Source: Candidatus Roizmanbacteria bacterium RIFCSPLOWO2_01_FULL_41_22
Lineage (GTDB): Bacteria; Patescibacteriota; Microgenomatia; UBA1406; GWC2-37-13
Length of the DNA stretch: 42,353 bases
Direction: 5' to 3'
Assembly (NCBI GenBank): GCA_001789805.1
Contig: MGAR01000027.1
Location: 1 to 42,353 of the forward strand
Positions 3,634 through 30,844 of this stretch are shown in pieces. The notes under the pieces were generated by a model that saw only the letters and a program-made list of their open reading frames with translations, made no database searches and was not told where the DNA came from. Numbering within the stretch: position 1 is the first letter of the stretch; the number at the start of each line of letters is the position of its first letter. The position numbers and the translations under genes are program-made.

Positions 3634-4806
3634 TCATCTTAAATCCAGTGAGCTGCCATCATAAACCAGATTTTTGGGTTTGATCACCACCTGCTTTTTG
3701 CCCTTTTCCACATAGCCGGCGTTCAGGCTGTCAAAACCATGTTTCTTGATAATAATTTGCGCTTTTTTAACCTCGCGCTCGGGCAAAAATAACGCATAGT
3801 CCATTCCCATGTTAAAGGTCTGATACATCTCAAAATCGGCAAGGCTGGCTTTTTCTTGAATAAAATCAAACAAAGATGGCGGTTTGACGATTCTCTCAAC
3901 CACATAACTAAAATTTGGTCGCGCCCGCATCAGCTTTCTTAAGCCATGGCCGGTGATGTTGGAGATATAGTGAAGATCGATCTTTTTAGTCAGTAAATCT
4001 TGTATTAGTTTGGCGTAAATATGGGTTTTGTGCAATATTTCCTCGCCGTACATCTTGCCGTTTGCCAGTTTAGTCGCATAACCTTTAGGTAATTTTTTGG
4101 CAATTACCCTGGCCAAAGACAGACCATTAGCATTGATGCCGGCGCTTTTTAATAGTAAAATCCTGTCACCTGCCCGCAGTTTTTTATCGGTAATCAGATT
4201 GGTTTTTGGTCTGATGATACCGGTAGCTGAACCGCCCAGATCAACGGTGTCGGGGACAACGATTCCCTTGAGAGTCGGCGTTTCTCCGCCACCCCAGGAC
4301 ACACCGGCCAGATCGCAGGCGCTCTTCCAGCCGCCGATTAAATCCCGCATCCGCACCCGATCCTGCAGCCAGTCGTTGTTTTCAATCGCCCAGTAGGCGT
4401 GAATAACTAAAGGAATAGCTCCAACTGTGACCAAATCGTTAATAATTGTCGCTACAGTATCATGACCAATGACATCATAGTAAGTTTTGCCGGTAATCTT
4501 GAGCATGGCATCGGCCACCAGATTTTTTGTCCCCAGCCCCTCGATAACCGAAGCCAGACAAAAATCTTGCTTGTCCTGAGTAGAATCAAAGGATTTATCC
4601 TGAGCGGAGCCAGAAACAATCCTGTTCCTGGCGGAGTCGAAGGACCAGACATAGGCCGACTCGCCCCGACTATCAGTAATTTCACGGAAGCCATATTTCT
4701 TCAAATTAACAGCAGTAGACTTAGCGGCATTTTGCGCCAGTTTTTTTATCGGGTCTTTGGTGTCGTAATCATCTCCCACCTGGGCATAGCTGATTTTCTG
4801 TTTCAT
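3634..4806 (-). CDS. purM: phosphoribosylformylglycinamidine cyclo-ligase (AIR synthetase)
   Basis: PurM closes the imidazole ring, converting FGAM plus ATP to AIR. The protein has 390 residues; typical bacterial PurM has about 345. Recognisable parts are the N-terminal YAQVGDDYD, the ATP/phosphate loop region GLGTKN near 90-95, the NDLVTVGAIPL segment, the glycine-rich GVSWGGGETP, and NITGHGLRK. It is the last gene of the purine cluster, 23 nt behind purC. Residues 55-80 (SFDSARN...STQDKQ) are extra and are encoded by a palindromic repeat element (4571-4644) inserted in frame at a surface position before the active-site loop. The rest of the protein looks intact, so it is probably functional. 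Confidence 0.9.
   Translation of the reverse strand: MKQKISYAQVGDDYDTKDPIKKLAQNAAKSTAVNLKKYGFREITDSRGESAYVWSFDSARNRIVSGSAQDKSFDSTQDKQDFCLASVIEGLGTKNLVADAMLKITGKTYYDVIGHDTVATIINDLVTVGAIPLVIHAYWAIENNDWLQDRVRMRDLIGGWKSACDLAGVSWGGGETPTLKGIVVPDTVDLGGSATGIIRPKTNLITDKKLRAGDRILLLKSAGINANGLSLARVIAKKLPKGYATKLANGKMYGEEILHKTHIYAKLIQDLLTKKIDLHYISNITGHGLRKLMRARPNFSYVVERIVKPPSLFDFIQEKASLADFEMYQTFNMGMDYALFLPEREVKKAQIIIKKHGFDSLNAGYVEKGKKQVVIKPKNLVYDGSSLDLR
4571..4644. repeat. palindromic repeat element inserted inside purM
   Basis: The segment carries TTGTCCTGAG, then TTTATCCTGAG (4594-4604), then GCGGAGTCGAAGGA (4631-4644). These are parts of the CCTGAGCGGAGTCGAAGG type of repeat found scattered in many CPR-like genomes. 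TTTATCCTGAG and TCGAAGG recur in the intergenic repeat at 31034-31057. Here the element is translated without a stop or frameshift and adds about 26 residues to PurM. Confidence 0.8.
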
Positions 4807-4829
4807 AATAATGTTATAAATTACGTGTT

Positions 4830-5798
4830 TCAGGTTACATGTTTCACGCTTTCAATAATCCTCTTCTCAATTGGATATTTATAAGCCTGAAATTTTTTTC
4901 CGGTGATTTTTTCATAGACGCCGATATATCTTTGTGCTAGATCAACAATCAGTTGTTTGGCCATCGGCGGCGGCTTACCGTCACCGCGATAACCGCGCTT
5001 GGCATACCATAAGCGCAAAAATTCCTTGTCAAAATTTTCCGGTTCTTGGCCTTTGCTGACTCGTTCTTGATAAGTATCAGCTTTCCAAAAACGGGAAGAG
5101 TCGGGGGTATGAATCTCATCCATCAGAGTCAGGTTGCCTTTTTCATCAAGACCAAATTCATATTTAGTATCGACCAGAATCAATCCCCTTTTTACGCACA
5201 ATTTACTCCCGAATTTAAACAATTCCAAGGCCACTTTTTCCATCTGCAGATAGATTTTTTTAGGAATTAATTTTTTAACCATAATTTGTTCTCGAGTCAA
5301 TCTTTCATCATGACCGCCCTTTCCGCCGCCGTGAGTTGTGGGGGTGATAACTGGCGTCGGTAGTTTATCATTTTTTTTCATTCCATCAGGAAATTTTATA
5401 CCATAGATTACTCGTTCCCCTTGTTGATAGGAATACCAGATTGAGGTCTTAGTAACCCCCGACATATAACCACGCACCACCATCTCAATTGGTATACCGG
5501 TTAAATTTTTAGCAAGAAGTACGTTTGGATGTGGTACCGATAGCATATGGTTGGAAACAATTTTTTCTGTTTTTTTAAACCAGAAAGCCGCTAGCAGATT
5601 TAACACCGCCCCTTTATAGGGAATGTTACCTAAAATCACATCAAATGCCGACTGCCGGTCGGTAGTGATAATAACCCGTTTGACTTTTAAAACATAAAAA
5701 TCGCGCACCTTACCCTGGCGTTTTTTTCCCAAGCCCGGGATATCGACGGTTTTTAACACATGGGGAAGAACGTTGAGAATGGTTTTGGATTGGATCAT
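4830..5798 (-). CDS. purC: phosphoribosylaminoimidazole-succinocarboxamide synthase (SAICAR synthetase)
   Basis: PurC joins aspartate to CAIR with ATP. The 322-residue protein shows the family motifs: KRQGKVRDFY near the N-terminus (ATP-binding loop), DRQSAFD, the TPTTHGGGKGGHDE region (substrate-binding stretch, here rich in glycine), LVDTKYEFG, and DEIHTPDSSRFW. The size matches the longer, yeast-like form (about 300 aa) rather than the short E. coli form (237 aa). The frame is open to 5840, which would run into purE. The ATG at 5798, 4 nt after the purE stop, matches where homology begins. It lies in the purine operon between purE and purM. Confidence 0.93.
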   Translation of the reverse strand: MIQSKTILNVLPHVLKTVDIPGLGKKRQGKVRDFYVLKVKRVIITTDRQSAFDVILGNIPYKGAVLNLLAAFWFKKTEKIVSNHMLSVPHPNVLLAKNLTGIPIEMVVRGYMSGVTKTSIWYSYQQGERVIYGIKFPDGMKKNDKLPTPVITPTTHGGGKGGHDERLTREQIMVKKLIPKKIYLQMEKVALELFKFGSKLCVKRGLILVDTKYEFGLDEKGNLTLMDEIHTPDSSRFWKADTYQERVSKGQEPENFDKEFLRLWYAKRGYRGDGKPPPMAKQLIVDLAQRYIGVYEKITGKKFQAYKYPIEKRIIESVKHVT

Positions 5799-5802
5799 AA
5801 GA

Positions 5803-6333
5803 TTATTTACCCATTGCTGCCAGATAATTTTTAACGCCAACCTTGGTTAGTTGATCATTCTTTTTGGCAACTGATTCTGCTAAATTTTTTTTATAATCAA
5901 CTATTTTTTTTGTTAATAATTTGTCATTTATGGCTAAAATCTGAATCGCCAATAACGCGGCATTTTTGGCACTGTTTATACCCACTGTAGCCACCGGTAC
6001 CCCGGGAGGCATCTGGACAATTGAGTAAAGGGAATCCACGCCGTTAAGGGCCGAGGATTTGATGGGAACGCCAATCACCGGTAGAGGAAAATGGGAGGCA
6101 ATCACCCCGGCCAAATGGGCAGCTCCACCGGCGGCGGCTATTATTACTCGTATTCCCCGTTTGTCGGCGTTCTTGGCAAACGCCGCGGTTTCTTCTGGAG
6201 AGCGATGAGCAGAAAGTATCCGTAGTTCATGTGCAATTTTAAATTCATTTAATATATCAATCGCCTCTTTCATCACCGGAAGATCGGAGTCCGAACCCAT
6301 GATAACGGCAACTAGTGGTTTGGACATAGTCAT
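5803..6333 (-). CDS. purE: 5-(carboxyamino)imidazole ribonucleotide mutase
   Basis: This 176-residue protein has the two PurE signatures, MGSDSDLPVM (12-21) and SAHRSPE (41-47), and the AAAGGAAHLAGVIASH segment. In most bacteria PurE isomerises N5-CAIR to CAIR after PurK. No purK is present in the window, so either purK lies elsewhere or this PurE carboxylates AIR directly (class II behaviour). The sequence alone does not settle this. The ATG overlaps the purB stop by one base (6333), which implies translational coupling. A second ATG two codons in is also possible. Confidence 0.93.
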   Translation of the reverse strand: MTMSKPLVAVIMGSDSDLPVMKEAIDILNEFKIAHELRILSAHRSPEETAAFAKNADKRGIRVIIAAAGGAAHLAGVIASHFPLPVIGVPIKSSALNGVDSLYSIVQMPPGVPVATVGINSAKNAALLAIQILAINDKLLTKKIVDYKKNLAESVAKKNDQLTKVGVKNYLAAMGK

Positions 6334-7718
6334 TAAGACAACTTATTAATAATCTCAACTAATTTTAACGCCCTCTCAGGCGCCGTACCCACGTATTTTT
6401 GCACATCAAGTAGCGTGCTGATTTTCTGTTTAGTCAGATATTTTTTAAGATGGCTATTTTCTGTAAGCGATGTTGCCATTGGATTGGACTTTCCTTCCTG
6501 GATCACAGCCCATGCCCGCATTGATATTTCCCGAAGCACCTCGTGGGTTTTCTGGCGATCGGCACCATTCTTCACTGCTGCCACTAAAATCAGTTCTGTA
6601 GCGGCAAACGGGGCGTATTGGGCGAGATTATAGCTGATTTTTTTTTCATTAATCACCAGGCCGCTGATAATTTTTTCCGCGGTAATTAAAATTTGATCAG
6701 TGGCTAAAAAGGCCTCGGGAATAAACAGCCGCTTATTGGCCGAATCATCAAGAGTGCGCTCAAGATATGACAGACTGGCGTTTCCTGAGGCGATAATTGG
6801 TAACGCCGCCACATAGCGGGCGAGTGAGCAGATATTTTCTGCGTTAATGGGATTTTTCTTAAAAGGCATCGCTGAGGAACCAACCTGTTTTTTGCCAAAT
6901 GGTTCCGACCACTCGCCGAAAAGCGGCGACTGAAGAATCCGCAAGTCACCGGCAAATTTTGCCAAAGCCGTCGTGACGCCAACTAAGGCATTTAACACCA
7001 TAAAATGAAACTGCCTGGGAAAAACCTGATTGCTGATTAAGACCGCTTCAATCCCTAGATCTTTCATCACTTGTTTTTCTAACTCATCGGCTGTTAGTTT
7101 GGTACCGGCAAGAAGCATCTGATAACTGGCGGCTGTTCCTGCCGCCCCTTTAAAACCCTTGCCTTTTAACATCATCCTGGCAAACCGTAAAGACTCCAGA
7201 GCGATCAGCAAATCCTGGGCGTAAAAAGCCAGACGGTAGCCGACAGTAGTGGGTTCAGCCGGCTGCAGATGGGTATAGCCAATACAGGGAAAATCGGCAT
7301 ATTGTCTGGTTTTTTCCGCCAGTAGCCTCAAAATCGTTTTTATCCGATTTTCAACTAACGATAACCCATCTTTTATTAGTAACGCATCGGCGTTATCAAC
7401 GATATCATAACTGGTGGCGCCTAGATGGATTTTCCCGCCGCCCACCTCGGCTTTTTCTGCAAACTCGCGGATCGCCGCCACCACATCATGCTTCACCTCT
7501 TTTTCGATCTCCAAAATCCGTTCAATGTTAATATTATTCTGATTCTTTTCCAGATCCTCCAATTCTTTAGCCGACACTAATCCCGCCTGCTGTTGCGCCT
7601 GAGCCAGCGCCACCCAGATCTTTCGCCACAATTTAAATTTATTTTCTTCACTAAAAAGCTGGCGCATCTCCGGCGACCCATAACGCCAGGAAAATGGAGA
7701 AAGATAATTAGCAAACAT
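6333..7718 (-). CDS. purB: adenylosuccinate lyase
   Basis: This 461-residue member of the fumarase/aspartase superfamily cleaves SAICAR to AICAR and adenylosuccinate to AMP. Conserved pieces are KHDVVA (76-81), HLGATSYD (98-105), THLQPAEPTT (149-158, catalytic His) and the superfamily signature GSSAMPFKKNP (280-290, flexible catalytic loop). The frame is open to 7787, but that extension overlaps the end of purQ. Homology begins at MFANYLSPFSWRYG, so I use the ATG at 7718, 16 nt after the purQ stop. It is a complete gene in the middle of the purine operon. Confidence 0.94.
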   Translation of the reverse strand: MFANYLSPFSWRYGSPEMRQLFSEENKFKLWRKIWVALAQAQQQAGLVSAKELEDLEKNQNNINIERILEIEKEVKHDVVAAIREFAEKAEVGGGKIHLGATSYDIVDNADALLIKDGLSLVENRIKTILRLLAEKTRQYADFPCIGYTHLQPAEPTTVGYRLAFYAQDLLIALESLRFARMMLKGKGFKGAAGTAASYQMLLAGTKLTADELEKQVMKDLGIEAVLISNQVFPRQFHFMVLNALVGVTTALAKFAGDLRILQSPLFGEWSEPFGKKQVGSSAMPFKKNPINAENICSLARYVAALPIIASGNASLSYLERTLDDSANKRLFIPEAFLATDQILITAEKIISGLVINEKKISYNLAQYAPFAATELILVAAVKNGADRQKTHEVLREISMRAWAVIQEGKSNPMATSLTENSHLKKYLTKQKISTLLDVQKYVGTAPERALKLVEIINKLS

Positions 7719-7734
7719 AATTAATATTGTAAAT

Positions 7735-8538
7735 TTATTTTTGAAAATAATTAACCGCGTTTTGGAAAATCTGCAACCCCGGACCATTGGTGGGTAAATT
7801 TTTTCCTTCTCGCAAATAAGTCTCCTTTAGAAGTGTCCAATGTGGCAGATGGGTAAAAAAGATCGCCCGCTCCGGATGTGGCATCAGCCCGAAGATTCTC
7901 CCGCTTTCATCGGTAATTCCGGCAATATCTTGTAAAGCGCCATTGGGATTAGATGGTAGTTGTTGCGCTTTATAGATCTCTCCTTTTACGTATTTTAAGG
8001 CAATGAGTTTTTTCTCATTCAGTTTTTGCATGACCTGATTATCGGCATAAAATCTGCCCTCGCCATGGGCAATCGGTAAGGAAAGCGTTGTCATATTCAT
8101 AAGCCAAGGGGACTGATTGATTACTTTCAGATCAACCCAACGGACGGTGTAGCGGGCTGAATCATTGTGAACAAGTGCCACTTCCCGCTTCCCGTATCGT
8201 TTATTCAAAGCCGGCAGTAAGCCCAAGTTTACTAAAATCTGAAAGCCGTTGCAGATACCAATTACCAGTTTGTCGTTTTTCACAAAAGAAGTCAGTTTTA
8301 ACCACAAATGATTTCTCAGACGATTAGCATAGGCATTACCGGAACCGGTATCATCACCATAGGAAAAACCACCAGGGAAAGCCATGATTTGATAATTCTT
8401 TAATTTCGCCAAACCAGCGATCAAATCGTTAATATGAATAATATCCGCCTTGGCGCCGGCTGTTTCAAAAGCAAACTTCGTTTCACTTTCACAGTTTAAG
8501 CCGTAACCGGCCATTATTAGAACTCTGGGTTTAACCAT
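7735..8538 (-). CDS. purQ: phosphoribosylformylglycinamidine synthase, glutaminase subunit
   Basis: PurQ supplies ammonia from glutamine to PurL. The 267-residue class I amidotransferase has the nucleophile Cys96 in GICNGFQIL and the His221/Glu223 pair in MPHPERAIFF. FPGGFSYGDD (54-63) is the oxyanion-side motif. It lies 6 nt downstream of purL, as expected for a two-subunit enzyme made in fixed ratio. It is longer than B. subtilis PurQ (about 227 aa), mostly through loops near 170-205. Confidence 0.95.
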   Translation of the reverse strand: MVKPRVLIMAGYGLNCESETKFAFETAGAKADIIHINDLIAGLAKLKNYQIMAFPGGFSYGDDTGSGNAYANRLRNHLWLKLTSFVKNDKLVIGICNGFQILVNLGLLPALNKRYGKREVALVHNDSARYTVRWVDLKVINQSPWLMNMTTLSLPIAHGEGRFYADNQVMQKLNEKKLIALKYVKGEIYKAQQLPSNPNGALQDIAGITDESGRIFGLMPHPERAIFFTHLPHWTLLKETYLREGKNLPTNGPGLQIFQNAVNYFQK

Positions 8539-8544
8539 GATTGT

Positions 8545-11517
8545 TTAATAATCTCTAAAAGTTTTCTTATATTCTTTTAACATCCTCTTCACATTGGTTT
8601 TGACAATGACGCGACCATTCTTGCTTTTAATGACAAACTGCCCATCTGCTCTCACTTTACCAATTTGGGTAAATATAGTTCCCTGCATGACTTTTTCAAA
8701 AACAAATTTATTTTTCGGATTAATGCTGACTACCATCCTCCCCTGACTCTCGGAAAACAAACCATAATCGTCACGGCTAAATTTACCAAGTGCTTTTTTT
8801 AAAGATACCTCAATCCCTAATTGGCCAGCCATGGCCGTCTTAGCCAAAGCCGCTGCCAGACCACCACGGTTGACGCTGATTGCTGAAACAACTAGTCCTT
8901 TTTCTACCGCTTTATGAAAAGCTTTGTACCGTTTTATGTTTTTCTGGGCATTCACTTGAGGAACGGAATTACCGACGTACTGATTTTTGCCATCACTCAT
9001 CTGCTGGTAGTACTCAGAGGCGCCGAGTTCATCATTAGTTTCACCAAGAACATACAATAAATCACCCGGAAACTTGAGATCTAAGGAGACAACTTGTGCA
9101 CTGTCATCAATTACTCCTATGGTAGAAATGAGTAGAGTAGGCGGAACCGAAATTTTTACCGGTTTACCTGTGTGATCGTAGCCTTTGAAATCGTTAAACA
9201 TGCTGTCTTTACCCGATATAAATGGCGTCTCATAGACTAAAGCGTAATCATAACAGGCTTTTGCTGCCCGTTTTAACTGACCAAGACGTTCGGCTTCTGT
9301 TGAGGAACACCAGCAAAAATTGTCCAAAAGAGCCAGTTTCTCGATATCGGCTCCCGCAGCCACTGACTGGCGAATCGCCGCATCGATACTGCAGGCAGCC
9401 ATGTGATAGGTATCAATAGCCGAATACCACGGATGAAGCGCTTGGGAAATTACCACGCCTTTTTGGGAGTTTAACACCGGTCTCATGATTGAAGCGTCGG
9501 CATTAACTCTCCCTTTTCCCTGTAATGGTTTCAACACTGCCCCGCCTTGCACTTCATGATCGTACTGTTGCGAAATAAACTCAAAGCTGGCAATATTTTG
9601 CCGGGATAACATGTCTAATAATATTTTGGTTAAATTTTTTGGTGGGGAAAACTGTGGTTCCGGATAATGGGGTGGGGCATAGGTCGTAATCATCGGCCGT
9701 TTAGGTAGACCATCATGAAGAAATTTCATATCAACATCCATAATCTTTTTCCCTTGGTATTTGACAACGCAGTCGCCGGAATCATTAAATTGGCCGATAA
9801 TTGTTGCTTCGACTCCACGACGTTCCATTAGTTCAGCGAATTTTTTCCATTTCTTTTTTGGAACGGCCAAGGTCATCCGCTCCTGTGATTCAGATACCCA
9901 GATCTGCCAGGGGGACAGACCAGGATATTTAAGCGGAACATCGTCTAACTTCACAAAACAACCGCCGCTTTCTTTGGCCATCTCGGCCACCGAACAGGAA
10001 AGGCCACCGGCACCATTGTCGGTAACGCTGTTATACAGATCTAAATCACGCGCTTCCTTAACTAAGGCGTCGGAGAGTTTTTTTTGAGTGATGGGATCGC
10101 CGATCTGGACAGCGGTGGCTGGACTACCCGAGTCCATCGATTCCGAGGAGAAAGTGGCGCCGTGAATACCATCTTGTCCAACCCGTCCACCGATCATCAC
10201 CACATAATCTCCAGGTCGGGCTTTTTTTTCATAAGTTTTATGGCCGCTGATTTTCTTGGGGATAAGACCTAATGTCCCCACAAACACCAATGGTTTGCCT
10301 TTATAGCCGTCATTAAACACCACAAATCCCTGTGGCGTGGGAATACCCGAACAGTTACCGCCGGAGTTGACCCCGTCAATTACCCCATTCATAATTCTTC
10401 GGGGAGAAAGCATTTTTTGGGTTAAATTGGCACCCTTATATAATGGCTTTGTATCGAGTGGATCGGCAAAACAGAAACCATAACGGTTGACTATCGGCTT
10501 GGCGCCGAGGCCAAAACCAATGGCGTCGCGGTTGACCCCGACAATACCGGTAATCGAACCACCGAAAGGATCTAAAGCTGAGGGACTGTTGTGAGTCTCA
10601 ACTTTATCAGTGACTAAATATTGTTCATCAAAAACAATTGCTCCGGAGTTATCTTGAAACACGGAAACGCAGATATCCTTTTTTCCCTTTTTCTTTCTAA
10701 TCTTTTCCGTCGCCGCTTGAATATAGATTTTAAATAAACCTTGTTTTATCTCATCAATCGGGTCAGCAAAAATCGTGTGTTTGCAATGTTCCGACCAGGT
10801 CTGGGCTATCGATTCCAACTCCATATCTGTCGGGTGGCGCTTCTTTTTCTTGAAATAATCACGAATAGCCTTCATAAAGGTTAAGTCTAAAGCTAGGGGT
10901 CCGCGCCTTGTCCCATCGCTGCTTTTTATTCCAGCCTTGCCAATTACCGCCAGTTCTTCATCAGAAACTTCGAGATTAACTTCGTCAACTTTTTTGGAAA
11001 GATCGATCTTGACCCGCGGCACCTCCACCCCCATACCTTTATTTTTTTGAAACTGTGAGCTGCTGAGAATTTTTGCCCGTTGGATGAGTGGATTGTACAG
11101 AGTGTCTGTAATTTTTTTAACTTCTTCTCCTCTGATTTTGCCATCAATAAAAGTAATCTGTGAAGTATAAACCTGTTCATGACCAATAAACTTTCTTTTT
11201 AACAGATCTTCAATCATCTCTTTAGCCGTTGTGGCGACATTATCGGTGACTCCCGGCAAATAACCGATCTCGATGGCATAGGTGAACTTTCTCGGAGAAA
11301 GAAAATGAATAAAAGAATAGTGTTGAGTGACGGGATTGGTGAGTATTTCTGCTACCTGCGAGAGTTCTTTTTTTGAAAGCTTTTTATCTATGGTGTAGAC
11401 GTCAACTAAAGTTACTTCTTGGATTTTGCTGTCAAACCCCAACGCTTGTAGTTTTTTTTTACGAACCGTTGCGCGTGAGTCAGACTGTTTGGAAGCAATT
11501 TCAATTCTGATTGCCAT
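8545..11517 (-). CDS. purL: phosphoribosylformylglycinamidine synthase, large subunit with fused PurS-like N-terminus
   Basis: PurL makes FGAM from FGAR, ATP and ammonia. At 990 residues it lies between the stand-alone B. subtilis PurL (about 740) and the fused E. coli enzyme (about 1295). The first 160 or so residues look like two PurS-type halves (about 1-75 and 78-160), joined to the linker and two PurM-like catalytic halves. The SEHCKH motif at 242-247 marks the start of the catalytic part, and the HNSPSALDPFGG region binds substrate and ATP. The glutaminase domain is absent and is supplied by the adjacent purQ. No separate purS gene is visible, consistent with a PurS-PurS-PurL fusion. 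It is the first gene of the second half of the purine cluster. Confidence 0.93.
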   Translation of the reverse strand: MAIRIEIASKQSDSRATVRKKKLQALGFDSKIQEVTLVDVYTIDKKLSKKELSQVAEILTNPVTQHYSFIHFLSPRKFTYAIEIGYLPGVTDNVATTAKEMIEDLLKRKFIGHEQVYTSQITFIDGKIRGEEVKKITDTLYNPLIQRAKILSSSQFQKNKGMGVEVPRVKIDLSKKVDEVNLEVSDEELAVIGKAGIKSSDGTRRGPLALDLTFMKAIRDYFKKKKRHPTDMELESIAQTWSEHCKHTIFADPIDEIKQGLFKIYIQAATEKIRKKKGKKDICVSVFQDNSGAIVFDEQYLVTDKVETHNSPSALDPFGGSITGIVGVNRDAIGFGLGAKPIVNRYGFCFADPLDTKPLYKGANLTQKMLSPRRIMNGVIDGVNSGGNCSGIPTPQGFVVFNDGYKGKPLVFVGTLGLIPKKISGHKTYEKKARPGDYVVMIGGRVGQDGIHGATFSSESMDSGSPATAVQIGDPITQKKLSDALVKEARDLDLYNSVTDNGAGGLSCSVAEMAKESGGCFVKLDDVPLKYPGLSPWQIWVSESQERMTLAVPKKKWKKFAELMERRGVEATIIGQFNDSGDCVVKYQGKKIMDVDMKFLHDGLPKRPMITTYAPPHYPEPQFSPPKNLTKILLDMLSRQNIASFEFISQQYDHEVQGGAVLKPLQGKGRVNADASIMRPVLNSQKGVVISQALHPWYSAIDTYHMAACSIDAAIRQSVAAGADIEKLALLDNFCWCSSTEAERLGQLKRAAKACYDYALVYETPFISGKDSMFNDFKGYDHTGKPVKISVPPTLLISTIGVIDDSAQVVSLDLKFPGDLLYVLGETNDELGASEYYQQMSDGKNQYVGNSVPQVNAQKNIKRYKAFHKAVEKGLVVSAISVNRGGLAAALAKTAMAGQLGIEVSLKKALGKFSRDDYGLFSESQGRMVVSINPKNKFVFEKVMQGTIFTQIGKVRADGQFVIKSKNGRVIVKTNVKRMLKEYKKTFRDY

Positions 11518-11543
11518 ATTGTTTCAGATTGACAATACCGCTA

Positions 11544-11572
11544 ACTTTATCAAGCCGACTCATTAAAATCAA
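11544..11572 (-). promoter_or_regulatory. weak candidate promoter for purL
   Basis: On the minus strand, TTGATT (11567-11572), 17 nt and TAAAGT (11544-11549) stand 26 nt before the purL ATG. The hexamers are imperfect. A promoter is expected here because the divergent vapBC pair separates purL from purD. Confidence 0.3.
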
Positions 11573-11609
11573 TAGTTTTTAAATGGGTTTAATATGCGAT
11601 ATATAGAAG

Positions 11610-11638
11610 TTGACAAAATCAGAATGATATGATATTCT
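11610..11638 (+). promoter_or_regulatory. vapB promoter, leaderless
   Basis: TTGACA (11610-11615), a 17-nt spacer and TATTCT (11633-11638) are followed by only 7 nt before the vapB ATG at 11646. Transcription should start at or next to the start codon. Confidence 0.75.
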
Positions 11639-11645
11639 TACTAGT

Positions 11646-11942
11646 ATGAATTACATTCAAACAATTAGTAAAATCAGAGGCAGAGGCCAGTTGACCATAC
11701 CTCAGGAAATCCGCCAGGCTTTAAAATGGCAGGGTGATGAAGTCTTGGTTAAAATCGAGACTACCTTTTCCGGATTTAAAGTTGAACGTTTACCTGTCTC
11801 TCATCCTCAAAATCCGGTTAAAAAATTAACACCAGCTCAATGGCAAAGTATTAATAAAACGATGGAAAATATCAGCCGTTCCGGCAAACAAAAAATCAGT
11901 TTAACCAACGTCTTAAGAAAAGACCGCGCTGCCCACTTATGA
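11646..11942 (+). CDS. vapB: AbrB-type antitoxin of a VapBC pair
   Basis: The 98-residue protein begins with a SpoVT/AbrB swapped-hairpin DNA-binding domain; GRGQLTIPQEIRQ (12-24) is the recognisable core. The C-terminal half (about 55-98) is probably the part that wraps the toxin. Antitoxins of this type repress their own promoter and block the partner nuclease. The stop overlaps the vapC start as ATGA at 11939-11942. The pair is on the plus strand, opposite to the purine genes on both sides, and looks inserted between purL and purD. Confidence 0.85.
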   Translation: MNYIQTISKIRGRGQLTIPQEIRQALKWQGDEVLVKIETTFSGFKVERLPVSHPQNPVKKLTPAQWQSINKTMENISRSGKQKISLTNVLRKDRAAHL

Positions 11943-12358
11943 AAGTCTATGTGTTGGATACTAGTGTTGTTATCAAATGGTATAACCGAAAAGCTGAGAA
12001 ACATGTAAACCAAGCGTTATCCATACTGAACGACCTGAAAGAGAATAAAATTAATATTGTTATCCCCAGTTTACTGATAGTTGAACTGGTAAATGTTTTT
12101 ATTAAAGGTAAACAATTAAAAGCCTCCGTTATCCAAGATTTAACCACTTCTTTTTTTTCTCTTCCTTTGATCATGAAAGAGCCAACCAGCGAATTGATTT
12201 CTCAAATACCAGCTATTAGTCATCAATATAAGTTAACCGCTTACGATTCTTTATATATCGCTCAAGCGCTAAACGAGAACTGCCAATTAATTAGCGGCGA
12301 CGCTCAGGGACATGGGAAAGTAACTGATGGCACTGTCCTTATGCTTAAAGATTATTAA
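11939..12358 (+). CDS. vapC: PIN-domain ribonuclease toxin of a VapBC pair
   Basis: This 139-residue protein is a single PIN domain. The acidic metal-binding set is complete: Asp7 in VLDTSVV, Glu49 in LLIVEL, Asp103 in AYDSLYIA, and Asp121 in LISGDAQ. VapC toxins cut RNA, often tRNA or rRNA, when the antitoxin is lost; the target here is unknown. It is coupled to vapB by a 4-bp overlap. Its 3' end overlaps the convergent remnant of a HAD gene. Confidence 0.88.
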   Translation: MKVYVLDTSVVIKWYNRKAEKHVNQALSILNDLKENKINIVIPSLLIVELVNVFIKGKQLKASVIQDLTTSFFSLPLIMKEPTSELISQIPAISHQYKLTAYDSLYIAQALNENCQLISGDAQGHGKVTDGTVLMLKDY

Positions 12359-12574
12359 TTTCAAACCTTCCCATAAGCTCTCCGGTTATCTTTTCCAGCG
12401 AATTAACTACTTTATCTGCTTGGGAAAAATCCTGGTGTTTTGACCAGTCATGAGGTGTACGTACTGATATTTTTGACCGCCGTACTTGGCCACTATTTCG
12501 CTAAACGACTGCCACTGCAAGGGCTCGCTATCCACAATCACCCCGTCTTTGTCAAAAATGATTGCTTTGGTCAT
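12345..12574 (-). pseudogene. internally deleted HAD-family hydrolase remnant
   Basis: The start codon at 12574 overlaps the purD stop as ATGA, so this was once a coupled gene of the operon. The first 31 or so codons read as a clear HAD N-terminus with the nucleophile motif FDKDGVIVDSEP, then the frame stops at 12407 after 55 codons. In a second frame over 12345-12483 the translation runs into HDWSKHQDFSQADKVV and NSLEKITGEL. That is the typical C-terminal end of phosphoglucomutase-like HAD proteins (aspartate/alanine followed by a hydrophobic pair and SLEE). About 150 middle residues are therefore missing and the two ends are joined out of frame. The vapBC insertion next door may have accompanied the deletion. 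Confidence 0.7.
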
Positions 12575-13848
12575 ATTAGCGCTTTTTGACCAATGTCGCG
12601 GCGGTACTGCATCTGGGAAAAATAGACTCCTTGTTTACCGATTGCTGCATAAGTGGTTTTTAAAGCTTGTTTTATGTTGGTGCCGTAGCCGGTCACACCC
12701 AACACCCGGCCACCTGAAGAAGTGATTCTTCCTTTGTCTACGGTGGTGCAGGCATGAAATATTTGAATATTTTTATTTTGTTTTGTATCTAAACCGTGGA
12801 TAATTTCACCCTTTTTGTAGCTTCCAGGATAACCTTCAGCGGCTAAAACCACACAGGCTGCCGCTCCTTTTTTAAACTGTACATGGTTGTTTCGAAGTTT
12901 ACCGCGAATACAGGCGTTGACGATCTCAAACAAATCAGACTGAAGTAGCATCATCTGTGGTTGGGTTTCCGGATCACCAAAGCGCACATTAAACTCTAAT
13001 ACTTTGGGGCCATCTTTAGTGATCATCAAACCCGGGTAAATCACTCCACGATAATCGAGTTTATCCTTGATGATTCCTTGCAAAAACGGTTGTAAAATAT
13101 TTTTCTGGATTAACGTCGTTAGCTTCTTATCAACGGTGGGTACCGGCGCATATGCTCCCATGCCGCCTGTGTTGGGGCCGCGATCACCGTCAAAAATCCG
13201 CTTATGATCTTGTGCCGGCAACAGCGGCACAATGATTTTTCCATCGGTAAAAGCAACTACCGACACCTCATAGCCCTGCAGTTTTTCTTGAATAATAAAA
13301 GTTTTTCCCGCCTCGCCAAACCCCGTCATTTCTTCAATTGCCTGCAGTGCTTCCTTCTTAGAGTTGGCAATCAACACCCCCTTGCCCAAAGCCAGCCCGT
13401 CGGCTTTAATCACAAACTCCGACCATTGAGAGTCTTGGATAAATTTCTTGGCTAATTTAGTATCACCAAACACCTTAAACTCCGGATGGGGGAGGTGGTG
13501 CCTTTTCATAAATTGAAGCGCCCAAGATTTGCTGCTTTCCAGTTTGGCGGCTTTTTTGGTAGGGCCAAAAATCGCCAGATTTTTTTGGCGAAAATAGTCA
13601 ACGATTCCGGCAACCAATGGCGCCTCCGGACCAACTATCGTCAGCCTAATTTTTTGTTTAATGGCAAATTTTGTCAAAGCCAAAACGTCGTTGGCTTTTA
13701 TTGGTAGGTTAGTGCCAATATTAGCGGTACCGCCGTTACCTGGAGCAAAATAGATTGTGCCAACTTTGGGGGATTGTTTTAATTTCCAACCCAAAGCGTG
13801 CTCCCGACCTCCAGAACCGACGATTAAAATTGGTTCCTTTTTTATCAT
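12571..13848 (-). CDS. purD: phosphoribosylamine-glycine ligase (GAR synthetase)
   Basis: PurD joins glycine to phosphoribosylamine with ATP. The 425-residue ATP-grasp protein starts with ILIVGSGGREHALG (N-terminal Rossmann-like domain). It carries the glycine-rich ATP-grasp loop KADGLALGKGV, and the signature LEFNVRFGDPETQ binds Mg-ATP. The frame is open to 13872, but the ATG at 13848 matches the family start and leaves a 14-nt gap after purN. It is the third gene of the purF-purN-purD unit. Confidence 0.95.
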   Translation of the reverse strand: MIKKEPILIVGSGGREHALGWKLKQSPKVGTIYFAPGNGGTANIGTNLPIKANDVLALTKFAIKQKIRLTIVGPEAPLVAGIVDYFRQKNLAIFGPTKKAAKLESSKSWALQFMKRHHLPHPEFKVFGDTKLAKKFIQDSQWSEFVIKADGLALGKGVLIANSKKEALQAIEEMTGFGEAGKTFIIQEKLQGYEVSVVAFTDGKIIVPLLPAQDHKRIFDGDRGPNTGGMGAYAPVPTVDKKLTTLIQKNILQPFLQGIIKDKLDYRGVIYPGLMITKDGPKVLEFNVRFGDPETQPQMMLLQSDLFEIVNACIRGKLRNNHVQFKKGAAACVVLAAEGYPGSYKKGEIIHGLDTKQNKNIQIFHACTTVDKGRITSSGGRVLGVTGYGTNIKQALKTTYAAIGKQGVYFSQMQYRRDIGQKALI

Positions 13849-13862
13849 ATCTCTGCCAATTT

Positions 13863-14483
13863 TTAATTGCATATTCTTTTCAATGCCTCAATATAGATTT
13901 GATGTTCTCCTTTTTTTAAACGGGTATACAAAGACTCAACTGTATCTTGGGGTAGAATTTTAACAAAACAGCGCTCCAAGACCGGACCAAAATCAAACTC
14001 TTTAGATAAAAAATGCACCGTTGAGCCGGCGTAAGTGGCTTTCTGATCCAAAAAATTTTGAATGGCTTTTTCGGTAAACTTGCCCCGATTCCATAAGGCT
14101 TTGGTATCGTCTGGATTTTTTACCACGCCGTCTAATTTGTCAGGAATCAAGCCGGGATGGATGTTTAAAATTTTATTGGGGAAAGCGTCGATAAAATCAT
14201 CAGAAATTATTTTCTTCCAGCCCCCAAGCGCTACATAATCAACGCGGTATTGATGTTGTAATAGAGCTTGCAAATTTTCTTCCGGTTTATAGATATGGGT
14301 GGTTAGATGGTGCTTCTTAGCTCTTACCAAGCCGTAGGCGTCTTTGGTGTCGCTGACCACTGCTGTAATTTCCGCTTTAATTTTCCCCGCCTCAATTGCA
14401 TCAATCACTGCCTGTAGGTTGCTGCCGGTTCCGGCGTTTGATATGAGAAAGGTAATTTTTTTATGACCCGCTTTATTTATCAT
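13863..14483 (-). CDS. purN: phosphoribosylglycinamide formyltransferase (GAR transformylase)
   Basis: PurN transfers a formyl group from 10-formyl-THF to GAR. In the 206-residue protein the catalytic trio is visible: Asn107 and His109 in NIHPGL, and Asp164 in KEFDFGPVL. AGSTVHF (152-158) and the N-terminal ISNAGTGSNLQA (phosphate binding) are also present. A segment after the catalytic His (about 115-148) is longer than in E. coli PurN. It overlaps the end of purF by 11 nt, implying coupled translation. Confidence 0.93.
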   Translation of the reverse strand: MINKAGHKKITFLISNAGTGSNLQAVIDAIEAGKIKAEITAVVSDTKDAYGLVRAKKHHLTTHIYKPEENLQALLQHQYRVDYVALGGWKKIISDDFIDAFPNKILNIHPGLIPDKLDGVVKNPDDTKALWNRGKFTEKAIQNFLDQKATYAGSTVHFLSKEFDFGPVLERCFVKILPQDTVESLYTRLKKGEHQIYIEALKRICN

Positions 14484-15975
14484 AGAAATATTTACCCTCG
14501 CGGCTTACTGGATAAATTCCGGTGATACAGCCGCCACAACCGCCGTTATTTAAGAATATCTCTTGTGGGTTTTTGGGCGTCTTTACTTTTGTGTACATAA
14601 ATCGCGCTTGAATAAACCCACGATGACTGATGTAGTTTACGCTGGTGGCGCCAATTTTTCTAGTGATTCTTTTGATGTTCCCGGCCAGTTTGTTGGCCAA
14701 AAGTTCTTCGCCGGTTCTGATACTTACTCCCAAAAAACAACGGTGCGCAACCGGAGGAAAGCCGATAATCCAGTGAACTTCTTTGGCACCAAGAGAAAAA
14801 ATCGCTTTTGTAATCTTGCTTGTCACGTTACCACGAACAATCGAGTCATCACCAATCACCACTACCGCATCTTTCCAAATCTCCCGATCTGGTACCAGAG
14901 ATAATTTTCCTAGTATTTTTCGTTTAATTCTTTTTATCTGATCGTCTCGCATAAAAAGCCGTTGGTTGCCGTTTGGATCAAAATGGTCACGGATTATCAC
15001 CTGTCGGTAAGGCAGATCGGCCTCATTGGCATAACCCATGGCCAGAGCAATGCCGGAATCCGGTGCACCAACCACAAAGCTAGCTTTTTTGATGGGTTTT
15101 TCGCGGGCCAATATTGCTCCACAGCGCTCGCGAAAACGGGCAACAGACAACCAATTTTGAGGTTGACGCTCCACACCGGTGGTTTCATAGGTGGGAATAA
15201 GCGAATCTGGCCGACTGAAATATGCCCACTCAAAATCACAAAAATTCCCCATTCCACCCGCACCTTGTTTTATAACTTTTAGACCGCTTTTGCTTATCTT
15301 GACTAGTTCGCCGCGCTTTAACTGCCTGATAACTTTAGCGCCTATCTTGTCTAAAGCGTGCGTTTCTGAAGTTGCTACCCATTTATCCTTAACGCGGCCA
15401 ATAATTAACGGCCTGATGCCAAGATTGTCTCGAGCAAGATAAAGAGTGTCGTCTATTCCAACAATTAAACTATATGCCCCTTTAACCTGAGAGAGAGCGG
15501 TGGTAATTTTTTCGTCCCAATTCTTACCTTTAAGGCGCGATAAAAATTGTGAAAAAAGGTAGGTGTCGCTTGCCCCGGGTGGCAAACGGCCGCCAATCTT
15601 TTTTTTTAGATCGTCAATTGCTACAAATTCGCCATTATGGGCCACGGCTACTTTGTCGCCGTTTGGTGACTGGACCAAACAGGGTTGAAGATTGTTTTTA
15701 TGATAACCGCCATGCGTTCCATAGCGGCAGTGAACAATGGTCCAAAGGGCGGGTTTATTAAATTGGTCAACGATTTTAGGTGTAAATATTTCTTTTAAAA
15801 GGCCGTCTCCGGTGTGTTTTACCAATTTTTTTTCGGTTCGGGTCACTAAACCCGCCCCTTGCGCTCCGCGATGTTGCACACCACCCGCTGCTAAAAGGGC
15901 TAGTCGGGTTTGGTGGCTATACTTAGTGCTAAAAACACCAACGATTCCGCACTTTTCTTGCAATGGTTTATCCAT
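14473..15975 (-). CDS. purF: amidophosphoribosyltransferase
   Basis: PurF starts the pathway by making phosphoribosylamine from PRPP and glutamine. The 500-residue protein has an N-terminal glutaminase domain: Cys9 in KCGIVGVFS would be the nucleophile after removal of an 8-residue propeptide, followed by QHRGAQGAG. The C-terminal phosphoribosyltransferase domain has the PRPP loop VIGDDSIVRGN. A cysteine-rich end (GGCGGC) and other cysteines resemble the Fe-S-containing, Bacillus-type enzyme. The frame is open to 15990, but GGAGGAG lies just before the second ATG at 15975, so I use that start. An intrinsic terminator lies directly upstream of the RBS, which may control entry into the operon. 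Confidence 0.94.
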   Translation of the reverse strand: MDKPLQEKCGIVGVFSTKYSHQTRLALLAAGGVQHRGAQGAGLVTRTEKKLVKHTGDGLLKEIFTPKIVDQFNKPALWTIVHCRYGTHGGYHKNNLQPCLVQSPNGDKVAVAHNGEFVAIDDLKKKIGGRLPPGASDTYLFSQFLSRLKGKNWDEKITTALSQVKGAYSLIVGIDDTLYLARDNLGIRPLIIGRVKDKWVATSETHALDKIGAKVIRQLKRGELVKISKSGLKVIKQGAGGMGNFCDFEWAYFSRPDSLIPTYETTGVERQPQNWLSVARFRERCGAILAREKPIKKASFVVGAPDSGIALAMGYANEADLPYRQVIIRDHFDPNGNQRLFMRDDQIKRIKRKILGKLSLVPDREIWKDAVVVIGDDSIVRGNVTSKITKAIFSLGAKEVHWIIGFPPVAHRCFLGVSIRTGEELLANKLAGNIKRITRKIGATSVNYISHRGFIQARFMYTKVKTPKNPQEIFLNNGGCGGCITGIYPVSREGKYFYDK

Positions 15976-15990
15976 TTCCGGCTCCTCCAT

Positions 15991-17101: not shown

Positions 17102-18199
17102 TTACTCTTGAATCCTTACTGGCATGATGATGTGAAGAAAATCATTGTTTTTCTCGTTTCTGAAGACGACCGGCGCGTCGGGACGAAGCATCTCAATTGT
17201 AATACTCTTGCTGTCTGTGTGATTTAGAAAGTCCAGAAGATATCGAAAATTAAAGGCGACCCGCATCTCCTCCCCCTTAATTTGCGCTTCTTGTACGGTT
17301 GTATTTTCCTCGTTGCCTTCTTTTTTAGGCCGCATTGCAAGTTCGTTCTTTCTAAAATCACAGACGACTACGTTTGAGAAATCACGGGCAAAAACAGAGA
17401 TTAGTTTAATATTTCGCATTAGGTCGTCTTTTTCTAGGATAGCCGTGGTCTTTATTTCGGCCGGAAGAACTCTCTCGTAAGGGGGGAACTCGCCTTCTAT
17501 AAGGCGCGAATAAAAAGAATGCTCCCTGACATAGAAACAAATAGTCTTTTCCTCCTGAGAATAGGAGAATCCCACCTCCTTCTCTTTATTAATATTTCTT
17601 AATACCTCTTGCAGGAATTCTGCAGGCACGATCATCGAAGGAATTATCCCCTTACTTCTCTCCTTCACAAGGGATAAACGAAACCCGTCGGTAGCCACCA
17701 TTACCAGGTTGTCCTCGTCGGTTGAGAAACTAATTCCTGTCAAAACAGGGCGAGCGTCGTCGTTTGAGGCAGTAAAAAGTATCAAGGGTAGGTTCTGGGT
17801 TAAAAAAGAAGTTGCGATCTTCTGCTCTTTGCCTGGCATCTTTGGTGGTGGGGGGAAGTCTTCAACTACCATTGTCGGGAAATTGCCTTTAGTTTTACCC
17901 TGAAGGATTGTTGTTTGCTTGTCTTTTATGTCTAGAGTGATCTTTCCTGGTTGCAAGAACTGCATAAACTCTATCAACCTTTTAGGTTCGATTACAAACT
18001 CCGCTTCTCCTTTACCGGATATCGCTAGTCTGGTTTGATAGTAGACGTTAAGGTTGGTTGTGTAGAGCGAGATGCTGTCTTCTTTTATACCCACGCTCAC
18101 TCCTTGAAGAGCAATTGAGGTCGTTAGCTTATCTGAAGTAAAATGAGAAGCTAAAATAAGCCTCTCAAGAAACTGATCTTTATCTATCTCTATAATCAT
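17102..18199 (-). CDS. dnaN: DNA polymerase III sliding clamp, beta subunit
   Basis: DnaN forms the ring that holds the replicative polymerase on DNA. The 365-residue protein has the normal three-domain length. Typical pieces are the first-domain strand LIEFMQFLQPGKITLDI, the segment DDARPVLTGISF (start of domain 2), VATDGFRLS, and the C-terminal LHIIMPVRIQ. That terminus resembles the HYVVMPMRL end that forms the binding pocket for polymerase peptides. It follows dnaA, as in most bacteria, with a 114-nt gap that looks like the replication origin. Confidence 0.94.
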   Translation of the reverse strand: MIIEIDKDQFLERLILASHFTSDKLTTSIALQGVSVGIKEDSISLYTTNLNVYYQTRLAISGKGEAEFVIEPKRLIEFMQFLQPGKITLDIKDKQTTILQGKTKGNFPTMVVEDFPPPPKMPGKEQKIATSFLTQNLPLILFTASNDDARPVLTGISFSTDEDNLVMVATDGFRLSLVKERSKGIIPSMIVPAEFLQEVLRNINKEKEVGFSYSQEEKTICFYVREHSFYSRLIEGEFPPYERVLPAEIKTTAILEKDDLMRNIKLISVFARDFSNVVVCDFRKNELAMRPKKEGNEENTTVQEAQIKGEEMRVAFNFRYLLDFLNHTDSKSITIEMLRPDAPVVFRNEKNNDFLHIIMPVRIQE

Positions 18200-18313
18200 A
18201 GTTTGGTTATTTAATTTAGTAGTAGTAGAGACCGTGCATAAGTGTATAAGATAAAGGCTAGATTTTCAAGACAAAGAGAACCAGAAAAAACCAATGTTGA
18301 CAGTCGGTGGATA
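18200..18313. other. candidate replication origin (oriC) unwinding region between dnaA and dnaN
   Basis: Read on the minus strand, the order is a box-like TTATACACT (18241-18249), an overlapping box-like TTATGCACG (18233-18241), a 4-nt spacer, four CTA repeats (18217-18228), and then an AT-rich stretch (18200-18216). The DnaA box consensus is TTATNCACA, so both boxes match at 8 of 9. The order box, short spacer, trinucleotide repeats, AT-rich DNA is that of the DnaA-trio unwinding element described in Bacillus subtilis. A further weak box is at 18306-18314. Confidence 0.65.
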
Positions 18314-19642
18314 CTATGTCGATGAGCGTAATGTCCGGACTATCGTGTCGACCCCTTCCCTAAAAGATGCGTCTTTCATGATCAGTCTCTTTATCTTGTC
18401 TGCGCCATGCATGACGGTTGTGTGGTCCTTTCGTTTTAAGATATAGGCAATCTCCTCAAGCTTAAGCTGGAGCTCTGTTCGAAGTAAGAACATAATAATC
18501 TGTCTGGTAAGAGCAATCGCGCTTGACCTAGAAGCGCTTTTTATATGGGATTGTCTAATGTTATAATAAGAACAGGTGGTTTTAATAACGTCGTTTGGAG
18601 AGATTTTTTTTTGAGATGGCTGTTTTCTCCTCTCGGCGAAGAAGTCCTCTACGGCCTCAAGGTCAATTTTTTCACTCTTGCCAACAACCCGAGCACACAA
18701 CGAAAGAAGCGCCCCCTCAAGCGCCCGAGTGTCTGATACCGATTCAGAGATGATCTTAGCCGCTTCCATATCTATCATAACGCCCTTTTCCCGCGCTTTG
18801 ATAAGAAGAATAGCTGTCCTTAATTCAAAATCCGGGGCCTGAATGTCAACAATAAGTCCGCCCGAGAAGCGTGATCGGAGCCGATCTTCCAAACCCTTGA
18901 TGTGCGACAGAGGACGATCTGATGTCAGAATAATCTGTCCACCAGCAGAAACAATAGTGTTGAACGTATGAAAAAATTCTTCTTGAACCGTTTGCTTACC
19001 GCCGATAAATTGAACGTCGTCCAGAACGAGCAGGTTTAGGGGGCGGAATTTACGGCGGAATTTGGCAGTGCCTTTTTCTTGAATAGCCTCAATTAGCTCG
19101 TTAGTGAACTGATCGCTTGGACAGAAAAGAATTTTTGCTTTATGGTTGTTGTCCAAAATCTGCCGGGCAATAGCTTGGGCAAGGTGCGTCTTTCCTACAC
19201 CCACGCCGCCATGAAAGAATAATGGATTATATGATTTTCCAGGAGAGCTGGCGACAGCTTTGGAGGCGGCAAAAGCCACCTGGTTACTTGTTGAAACGGC
19301 GAAATTATCAAACTTGTATTTTATATTCAGTCCCGCCCTGGTAAATCCATCTTCAGTTGACGGTTGAAACTGGAAAAGCGGCGTCTCTTTTTTAATTTTT
19401 TTTTCCTCAAGAACAAACTCAACTCCCAAGCCCTTTTTAAAATGGGCGCCGATGAGCTCTTCTACCACGCCCTTACGTCTTTCAAGATATAGACGAGAAC
19501 CAATATTTTCACAAACAATAAGTATTTTTTTTTCGGTTAGCTCTTTTAACCGTACCTGTTTAAGCAACGAGTGAAGTATCGGATTTTTTTGATTCTTGTC
19601 CTGAAGGTTGGTTAAAAAATCGCTCCATAAAGAGGTTAACAT
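18314..19642 (-). CDS. dnaA: chromosomal replication initiator protein
   Basis: DnaA binds DnaA boxes and opens the origin. The 442-residue protein has a short N-terminal domain (1-80), little linker, an AAA+ domain with Walker A GGVGVGKT (145-152), Walker B LLVLDDV (204-210) and the DRLRSRF arginine-finger region (253-259). The C-terminal helix-turn-helix signature is RKDHTTVMHGADKI (404-417). The start at 19642 is preceded by a promoter in which an inverted pair of DnaA boxes covers the -35 region, so it is probably self-regulated. The -10 lies 5 nt from the ATG, suggesting a leaderless mRNA. Confidence 0.95.
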   Translation of the reverse strand: MLTSLWSDFLTNLQDKNQKNPILHSLLKQVRLKELTEKKILIVCENIGSRLYLERRKGVVEELIGAHFKKGLGVEFVLEEKKIKKETPLFQFQPSTEDGFTRAGLNIKYKFDNFAVSTSNQVAFAASKAVASSPGKSYNPLFFHGGVGVGKTHLAQAIARQILDNNHKAKILFCPSDQFTNELIEAIQEKGTAKFRRKFRPLNLLVLDDVQFIGGKQTVQEEFFHTFNTIVSAGGQIILTSDRPLSHIKGLEDRLRSRFSGGLIVDIQAPDFELRTAILLIKAREKGVMIDMEAAKIISESVSDTRALEGALLSLCARVVGKSEKIDLEAVEDFFAERRKQPSQKKISPNDVIKTTCSYYNIRQSHIKSASRSSAIALTRQIIMFLLRTELQLKLEEIAYILKRKDHTTVMHGADKIKRLIMKDASFREGVDTIVRTLRSST

Positions 19643-20540: not shown

Positions 20541-20978
20541 ATGGAATTTAACAAAATAGTCTCTCTTGTATTAGGTGTGGTAGTGGTGATTCTTATTCTG
20601 GTTTGGATAGGTAACAGGCTTCGCGCGAGAAGTGGGAGCGCTTTATTTACTACTGTCCAAATTACTCCATCTCCAGCTCAAACAATGACTATCGCCAGCC
20701 CAACCCCAAATAACGGTTGGAGTTTTTTTTCTTGGTTGCAAAGTAAACCCTCACCCACCCCAACTACTAAGGTTGTTCAAGGCGGCTCAACGATAATTTC
20801 CCCTACCACCACGCCCCCAACAATCAGAGCGACAGAAAGATATAACAACGACTATCGTCGTTATTCAACCGACGGCACACCATTAAAAGAGATTCCAAGC
20901 ACCGGAGCCTCTACATTTTTAATCCCGCTAGCGGCCGCGACTCTTTTTGGTGGGATATTTATTAAAAGGAAAAAATAA
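20541..20978 (+). CDS. predicted surface protein with LPXTG-like (IPSTG) sorting tail
   Basis: The 145-residue protein has an N-terminal membrane segment (about 5-23) and a low-complexity Pro/Thr/Ser-rich middle (about 40-95). It ends with IPSTG (118-122), a hydrophobic stretch and the basic end KRKK. This is the layout of a sortase substrate anchored to the cell surface. There is no catalytic domain and no sortase in the window. It could also simply be a two-pass membrane protein with an exposed loop. Confidence 0.7.
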   Translation: MEFNKIVSLVLGVVVVILILVWIGNRLRARSGSALFTTVQITPSPAQTMTIASPTPNNGWSFFSWLQSKPSPTPTTKVVQGGSTIISPTTTPPTIRATERYNNDYRRYSTDGTPLKEIPSTGASTFLIPLAAATLFGGIFIKRKK

Positions 20979-30238: not shown

Positions 30239-30559
30239 TTACAATTTAATAGAGTAAACTCCTGTTACGTAGTCTCTTATTAGAGCATTAAGAAGTGTTT
30301 GGTAAGGAATATTTTTTTTATTAGCTTTTGCCTTCAACCTAATTAAATCACCCTGATTTATACGAAGGGTAATTTTCTGTGATTGTTGTAGTTGTGTATA
30401 TCTCTTAGCCGCTTCCTGAAACATTTTTTTCATTTCTTCAGAATTCTCAACAGGTTGCCACTCTCCCCGTGCTATAGATGTTTCTATTTCCTTTTCATAA
30501 TCATCAAGGATAAGATTTTCAAATGGATTTATTTGGTTTTTTTGTTTTTGATAAGCCAT
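30239..30559 (-). CDS. antitoxin-like ribbon-helix-helix protein (second gene of a toxin-antitoxin pair)
   Basis: The 106-residue protein has a C-terminal DNA-binding pattern of the CopG/BrnA type (KITLRINQGDLIRLKAKA, then IPYQTLLNALIRDYVTG). Its N-terminal part (EKEIETSIARGEWQPVEN) is typical of antitoxins paired with BrnT/DUF4258-like toxins. It starts 3 nt after the upstream gene, so the order is toxin then antitoxin. It probably represses the shared promoter. Confidence 0.8.
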   Translation of the reverse strand: MAYQKQKNQINPFENLILDDYEKEIETSIARGEWQPVENSEEMKKMFQEAAKRYTQLQQSQKITLRINQGDLIRLKAKANKKNIPYQTLLNALIRDYVTGVYSIKL

Positions 30560-30562
30560 AGT

Positions 30563-30844
30563 TTATTTTTTAAGATAAATTTTAGTTAATTTACGATCTG
30601 GATATACCGTTTTTAAGAATGCAACATTTTTCTTTTTGTCCCAAACAAAAGGAACTGCATAAATATAGTCATTTATATTCACTATTAGTATCTGCTGGTG
30701 TTTATATTTTTTCCTATTTTTATGCTCGATAACAGTTATATATCCACCATGCTCTAAGGTATCTTTGACATGTTCAAAACAGACACCACGAGTTTTTTTG
30801 AGTAACTCATTCTTTTCTTCACTATACTCAATATCAAAATCCAT
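30563..30844 (-). CDS. BrnT/DUF4258-like toxin
   Basis: The 93-residue basic protein has the layout of small RelE-fold toxins: an N-terminal helix (YSEEKNELLKKTRGVCFEHV), then beta strands (QQILIVNINDYIYAVPFVWD) and a C-terminal strand with FLKTVYPDRKLTKIYLKK. The combination with the downstream antitoxin-like gene supports a type II pair. Activity (RNA cleavage) is inferred from the family. Its promoter sits next to the start codon. Confidence 0.78.
   Translation of the reverse strand: MDFDIEYSEEKNELLKKTRGVCFEHVKDTLEHGGYITVIEHKNRKKYKHQQILIVNINDYIYAVPFVWDKKKNVAFLKTVYPDRKLTKIYLKK

Follow-up and report, generated by a model that had tools for sequence, protein, structure and literature searches.

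The gap between dnaA and dnaN in the 42,353-nt stretch of DNA analysed here (referred to as the window) is almost certainly the start of chromosome replication in this Roizmanbacteria-type patescibacterium. Its best explanation, in which we have high confidence, is an oriC with a BUS-type unwinding module that also appears to hold the dnaN promoter. Pfam domains confirmed both flanking genes as named in the original prediction, and the two overlapping boxes, the 4-nt gap, the four CTA repeats and the AT-rich DNA that it had described were all found at their place on the minus strand. The genes and the elements read from the sequence between them are:

18314–19642, minus strand: dnaA, replication initiator (PF00308, PF08299)
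18249–18241, minus strand: predicted DnaA box 1, TTATACACT, the upstream box of the BUS
18241–18233, minus strand: predicted DnaA box 2, TTATGCACG, the downstream box of the BUS
18232–18229, minus strand: 4-nt spacer GTCT between boxes and trios, the GC-rich region of the BUS
18228–18217, minus strand: four DnaA-trios, CTACTACTACTA, equal to 3'-GAT-5' x4 on the plus strand
18216–18200, minus strand: AT-rich stretch, AATTAAATAACCAAACT, reaching the dnaN start
17102–18199, minus strand: dnaN, DNA polymerase III sliding clamp (PF00712, PF02767, PF02768)

On the minus strand, from the dnaA stop codon on, the gap reads TAG TATCCACCGACTGTCAACATTGGTTTTTTCTGGTTCTCTTTGTC TTGAAA ATCTAGCCTTTATCTTA TACACT TATGCACG GTCT CTACTACTACTA AATTAAATAACCAAACT ATG, with the ATG of dnaN at 18199 and with boxes 1 and 2 overlapping by one T (position 18241, minus strand).

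The published search rule for a BUS requires one box that deviates from TTATCCACA at no more than two positions; a second box is optional, and three or more trios must follow after a spacer (PMC8287927). According to the same survey, 3'-GAT-5' is the commonest and preferred trio, with its middle A on the captured strand, and the distance from the better box to the trios peaks at 10–13 bp (PMC8287927). The rule allows the second box up to four mismatches and the trios a distance of up to 16 bp from the nearest box. Boxes 1 and 2 fall within the rule with two mismatches each to TTATCCACA, and because of these mismatches the affinity of the predicted boxes for DnaA is uncertain. The four 3'-GAT-5' trios compare with a minimum of three, and they start 12 nt from box 1 and 4 nt from box 2, in agreement with the spacing rule. 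Order, strand and spacing all agree with the Bacillus subtilis BUS, bearing out the likeness that had been proposed. A single-strand hairpin was searched for in the dnaA-dnaN gap and was not found.

When we scored 97 distinct dnaA-dnaN gaps (from Roizmanbacteria, other Microgenomates, other candidate phyla and a few Firmicutes, with relatedness ignored in the locus statistics), 90% reached a BUS score of at least 5, versus 2.8% of first-order Markov shuffles. In the alignment of 36 relatives the information content is 1–2 bits in most columns of the boxes and trios: box 1 is near 2 bits per column, box 2 is kept except at its position 5, and the trio columns are conserved. The spacer between boxes and trios is mostly 3–5 nt long in this lineage and variable in sequence. 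The proposed alignment of related gaps found boxes, 3–5 nt spacer and CTA repeats kept in nearly all relatives. The 36-sequence profile omits L020 and L124, which are truncated or mis-anchored, and the real exceptions L005 and L006; L023 ends at a contig edge. Locus L005 is without the –35 hexamer described below and has degenerate boxes. Locus L006 (genome G012) has kept TTGAAA, box 2 and the trios and has lost box 1 (TTATTTTT), and is a natural single-box BUS.

Short AT-rich motifs are common, and the BUS likeness might have arisen by chance in an AT-rich intergenic stretch, a reading to which we give practically no credence. The 30-nt composite, with up to three mismatches allowed, occurs once in the window and in 0 of 100 shuffles of it, and chance is refuted by conservation, the element standing at the same place in tens of genera. 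CTACTACTA has no second copy in the window. The tandem-box-plus-trio pattern has a single match in the window's own 1.0-Mb assembly, namely the dnaA-dnaN gap, and was found in 19 of the 37 genomes searched, with one copy in each, while a reversed control pattern gave 0 matches in the same 37-genome search; the tandem boxes also occur only once in the entire genome of a one-contig relative (G006). Single TTATNCAC octamers are mildly enriched in the window (11 versus 5.5 expected), and the significance is in the arrangement of boxes and trios, not in single octamers. A generic pattern, TTATNMAC-N3-7-CTAYTACTA, was tried on 287 genomes of the phylum and rejected as uninformative (13 genomes matched versus 8 for the control), so that the element must be sought within the dnaA-dnaN gap. 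A search anchored at this gap in 30 genomes from remote families of the phylum gave 24 syntenic gaps, of which 9 reached a BUS score of 5, versus 1.25% of shuffles; the scores are clear in some of these genomes and weak in others, and several distant genomes or families have no dnaN after dnaA. The Roizmanbacteria form of the BUS should not stand for all candidate-phyla bacteria.

Because the window's own genome consists of 37 contigs, the whole-genome skew test rests on relatives. In G006, whose 1.217-Mb genome was covered whole, cumulative GC skew bottoms out at 1,038,342 and peaks at 537,905; its amplitude is 11,364, whereas the largest value in 2,000 block shuffles is 8,061. The BUS, at 1,038,565–1,038,591, lies about 0.25 kb from the minimum. 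Within the first 180 kb of another relative, G019, about 0.6 kb separates the minimum (74,551) from the BUS (73,932–73,958). In the window itself, where only a local turn is visible, cumulative GC skew falls to a flat minimum at about 15–21 kb, with the element inside, and then rises; the lowest point, at 16,551, is 1.7 kb from the element, an offset for which, in our judgement, noise over 42 kb can account. The keto-skew minimum of the window, at 26,125, points elsewhere and was set aside as noisy over 42 kb. The GC-skew check thus puts the minimum at the BUS in G006, with G019 and the turn in the window in agreement, and skew together with conservation supports the origin between dnaA and dnaN of the original prediction.

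Other genes of the window were noted in passing. A purine-synthesis cluster lies near the origin on the minus strand (3634–15990), with an AIR-synthase-like protein, SAICAR synthetase, adenylosuccinate lyase, FGAM synthase subunits, GAR synthetase, a formyltransferase and an amidotransferase-domain protein. Candidate-phyla bacteria do not usually make purines de novo. At 20541–20978 a 145-aa protein with no Pfam family sits between a phosphoribosyltransferase-domain protein and recA. At 30239–30844, in a low-GC stretch, a CopG/BrnA-type antitoxin-like protein adjoins a small family-less protein, and this pair is a possible toxin-antitoxin system.

The window DnaA shares about 62% identity with a Candidatus Roizmanbacteria DnaA, and most of the close loci that bear a name are likewise assigned to Roizmanbacteria. 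It aligns along its length to the B. subtilis protein in the DnaA-BUS structure 8btg. In the cryo-EM structure of the B. subtilis complex N187, R202 and E228 hold the bases of the trios and K222 lies at the fork (PMC10721633), and R264 of B. subtilis DnaA is the arginine finger (PMC8287927). N187, R202, K222, E228 and R264 align with N181, R196, K216, E222 and R258 of the window DnaA, and in an alignment of 16 sequences each of these is either invariant or conserved to at least 90%; the equivalents of B. subtilis N196 and E223 differ (K190 and Q217).

The gap also contains a promoter-like pair of hexamers, the second of them inside box 1:

18269–18264, minus strand: TTGAAA, the –35-like hexamer of a proposed promoter for dnaN
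18246–18241, minus strand: –10-like hexamer TACACT, inside box 1 (its positions 4–9)

The two are exactly 17 bp apart, which fits the sigma70 rule of 17 ± 1 bp with a variable spacer, and of the 17 positions before the –10 hexamer most of those outside the box carry less than 0.7 bits among the 36 relatives. In the same 36 sequences, TTG stands at –20 from box 1 in 34 (TTGAAA in 30, TTGCAA in 2, TTGACA in 1), and the –10 hexamer is TACACT in 31, TAAACT in 4 and TACACA in 1. The DnaA-box consensus TTATNCACA is loose at position 5. In box 1 this position is A in 42 of 43 loci with TTG versus 11 of 45 loci without it (Fisher p ~1e-13, relatedness ignored), while in box 2 it varies, so that the A fixed in the presence of TTG is the constraint expected from a –10 element. 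A promoter-like pair lies between trios and dnaN in 9 of 45 loci without TTG versus 0 of 43 loci with it, and the median distance from trios to dnaN is 60 nt without TTG versus 27 nt with it; in L005, which lacks TTG, dnaN lies 153 nt past the trio start. TTGAAA-N17-TACACT therefore appears to be a putative sigma70-type dnaN promoter with its –10 within the DnaA boxes. Transcription starts 6–8 nt after a –10, which would place the start of the dnaN transcript beside the trios, either in the last bases of box 2 or within the spacer.

TTGAAA could instead be the site of another origin-binding protein, given that up to three more columns past it are conserved and a –35 needs fewer. We consider this improbable, since more distant lineages (Gottesmanbacteria-like loci) have TTGACA or TTGACT at the same 17-bp spacing with unrelated spacers, and since 17 bp is the spacing used genome-wide in G006, where TTGA[AC]A/TA[CT]A[AC]T pairs number 26 at 17 bp, 15 at 18 bp and 2–9 at the other spacings from 11 to 23; the longer stretch from trios to dnaN in loci without the motif also speaks against it. 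A second alternative takes the whole element as only a DnaA-regulated dnaN promoter, with the boxes as repressor sites, the CTA repeats as leader and the opening of the DNA elsewhere. A well-spaced promoter does overlap the boxes, but in Woesebacteria, Amesbacteria, Shapirobacteria and others boxes and trios remain without the promoter and have therefore been kept for another reason, and the skew minimum of G006 sits at the element, all of which makes this alternative very unlikely. The combination of BUS and dnaN promoter in one element seems to be a variant specific to this lineage.

Upstream of the BUS, at the dnaA end of the gap, lie three further predicted sites:

18317–18325, minus strand: distal DnaA-box-like site TCATCGACA, over the last dnaA codons, 76 bp upstream of box 1
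18306–18314, minus strand: distal DnaA-box-like site GTATCCACC, its first base shared with the end of the dnaA stop codon, 65 bp upstream of box 1
18295–18303, minus strand: distal DnaA-box-like site CTGTCAACA, 54 bp upstream of box 1

In 30 members of the family we scored TTATNCACA at every position going upstream from box 1 (overall mean 5.7 mismatches, sd 0.83) and obtained mean mismatches of 2.8 at 76 bp, 3.27 at 65 bp and 3.2 at 54 bp, with three mismatches or fewer in 70% of loci at 65 bp and 73% at 54 bp. The scan also showed a box-like peak at 165 bp from box 1, inside the dnaA coding sequence, which probably reflects codon conservation. The steps of 11 bp between the distal sites put them on one helical face. 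The distal box of B. subtilis is essential; it has to lie 44 bp or more from box 6, in helical phase with it, and probably acts through a loop (PMC6669920); the distances of 54 and 65 bp are in phase with the B. subtilis 44 bp and lie beyond that minimum, and by analogy the weak predicted distal boxes may act in the same way.

On its other side, dnaA is preceded by a pair of boxes and by a promoter-like sequence, the latter read from the letters with its conservation judged by eye:

19675–19657, minus strand: head-to-head DnaA-box pair TGTGGATAAGTTATCCACA, just upstream of dnaA
19677–19705, minus strand: proposed dnaA promoter TTGATT-N17-TATTAT

Two intact boxes in the same arrangement are present in most of 30 relatives. 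The embedded dnaN promoter, the three phased distal boxes and this palindromic pair all go beyond the original prediction. The oriC of B. subtilis and that of Helicobacter pylori are bipartite, with DnaA boxes on both sides of dnaA, and boxes flank dnaA on both sides here too, the upstream part being, in contrast to those origins, a single head-to-head pair at a predicted dnaA promoter. It is possible that the pair is a second origin part; if it were required, as in B. subtilis and Helicobacter, the BUS alone would be insufficient. Conservation of the palindromic pair roughly equals that of the BUS, but the pair directly follows TTGATT-N17-TATTAT, which fits simple dnaA autoregulation, and no trios come after it in the sequence read, so that we think a required second part rather unlikely. 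The simplest reading of the pair is a putative DnaA autoregulatory site.

For the BUS-type origin with the embedded promoter, we infer the following course of events. The C-terminal domain of DnaA would bind boxes 1 and 2, and a filament of ATP-DnaA would grow from the boxes across the 4-nt spacer onto the plus strand, where it would capture the 3'-GAT-5' trios and open the AT-rich DNA toward dnaN, allowing the helicase to load. The three weak boxes at the dnaA end, on one helical face, would probably deliver more DnaA through a loop. With the –10 within box 1, RNA polymerase and DnaA would be mutually exclusive there, and dnaN transcription would begin beside the trios. A further step, which we put forward tentatively and which may well prove wrong, is that in Roizmanbacteria and some related Microgenomates DnaA on the BUS silences dnaN while –10 opening by RNA polymerase melts the trio-side DNA, coupling clamp transcription to origin firing.

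The BUS, its location between dnaA and dnaN and its wide distribution were already known from a survey of 2,070 species (PMC8287927). The module described here shares with the B. subtilis BUS (PMC6669920, PMC8287927, PMC10721633) the dnaA-dnaN location, tandem same-facing boxes, a short spacer, 3'-GAT-5' trios with AT-rich DNA beyond them, distal boxes upstream and the main trio-contact residues of DnaA. It differs in that the boxes overlap by one base, that four regular trios take the place of six, that distal boxes lie at 54, 65 and 76 bp instead of one native box at 44 bp, and that a dnaN promoter is predicted with its –10 in box 1. Skew-based origins are known from CPR genomes (PMC4736985, PMC7143001, PMC7111523). 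For Peribacteria, which also belong to the CPR, the available part of the report describes DnaA-box-like repeats near an origin placed by GC skew, similar to what we see, states that gene predictions did not reveal origin or terminus, and, in contrast to the present case, does not mention trios (PMC4736985). In the open-access literature we found no report of DnaA-trios in candidate-phyla bacteria and no description of a BUS containing the dnaN promoter, and the literature yielded no experiment on any patescibacterial origin. The core finding is a BUS in a further lineage, of which the promoter overlap, if confirmed, makes a variant.

The origins of candidate-phyla bacteria have mostly been placed through GC skew alone, and a conserved element of some tens of bases lets the origin be located precisely throughout a family of uncultured bacteria. 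A BUS in Roizmanbacteria lends support to the view of this module as ancient, and origin sequences this short are testable in vitro with purified DnaA and no culturing. The overlapping promoter, if real, would be a compact way of tying clamp production to the state of the origin in a reduced genome.
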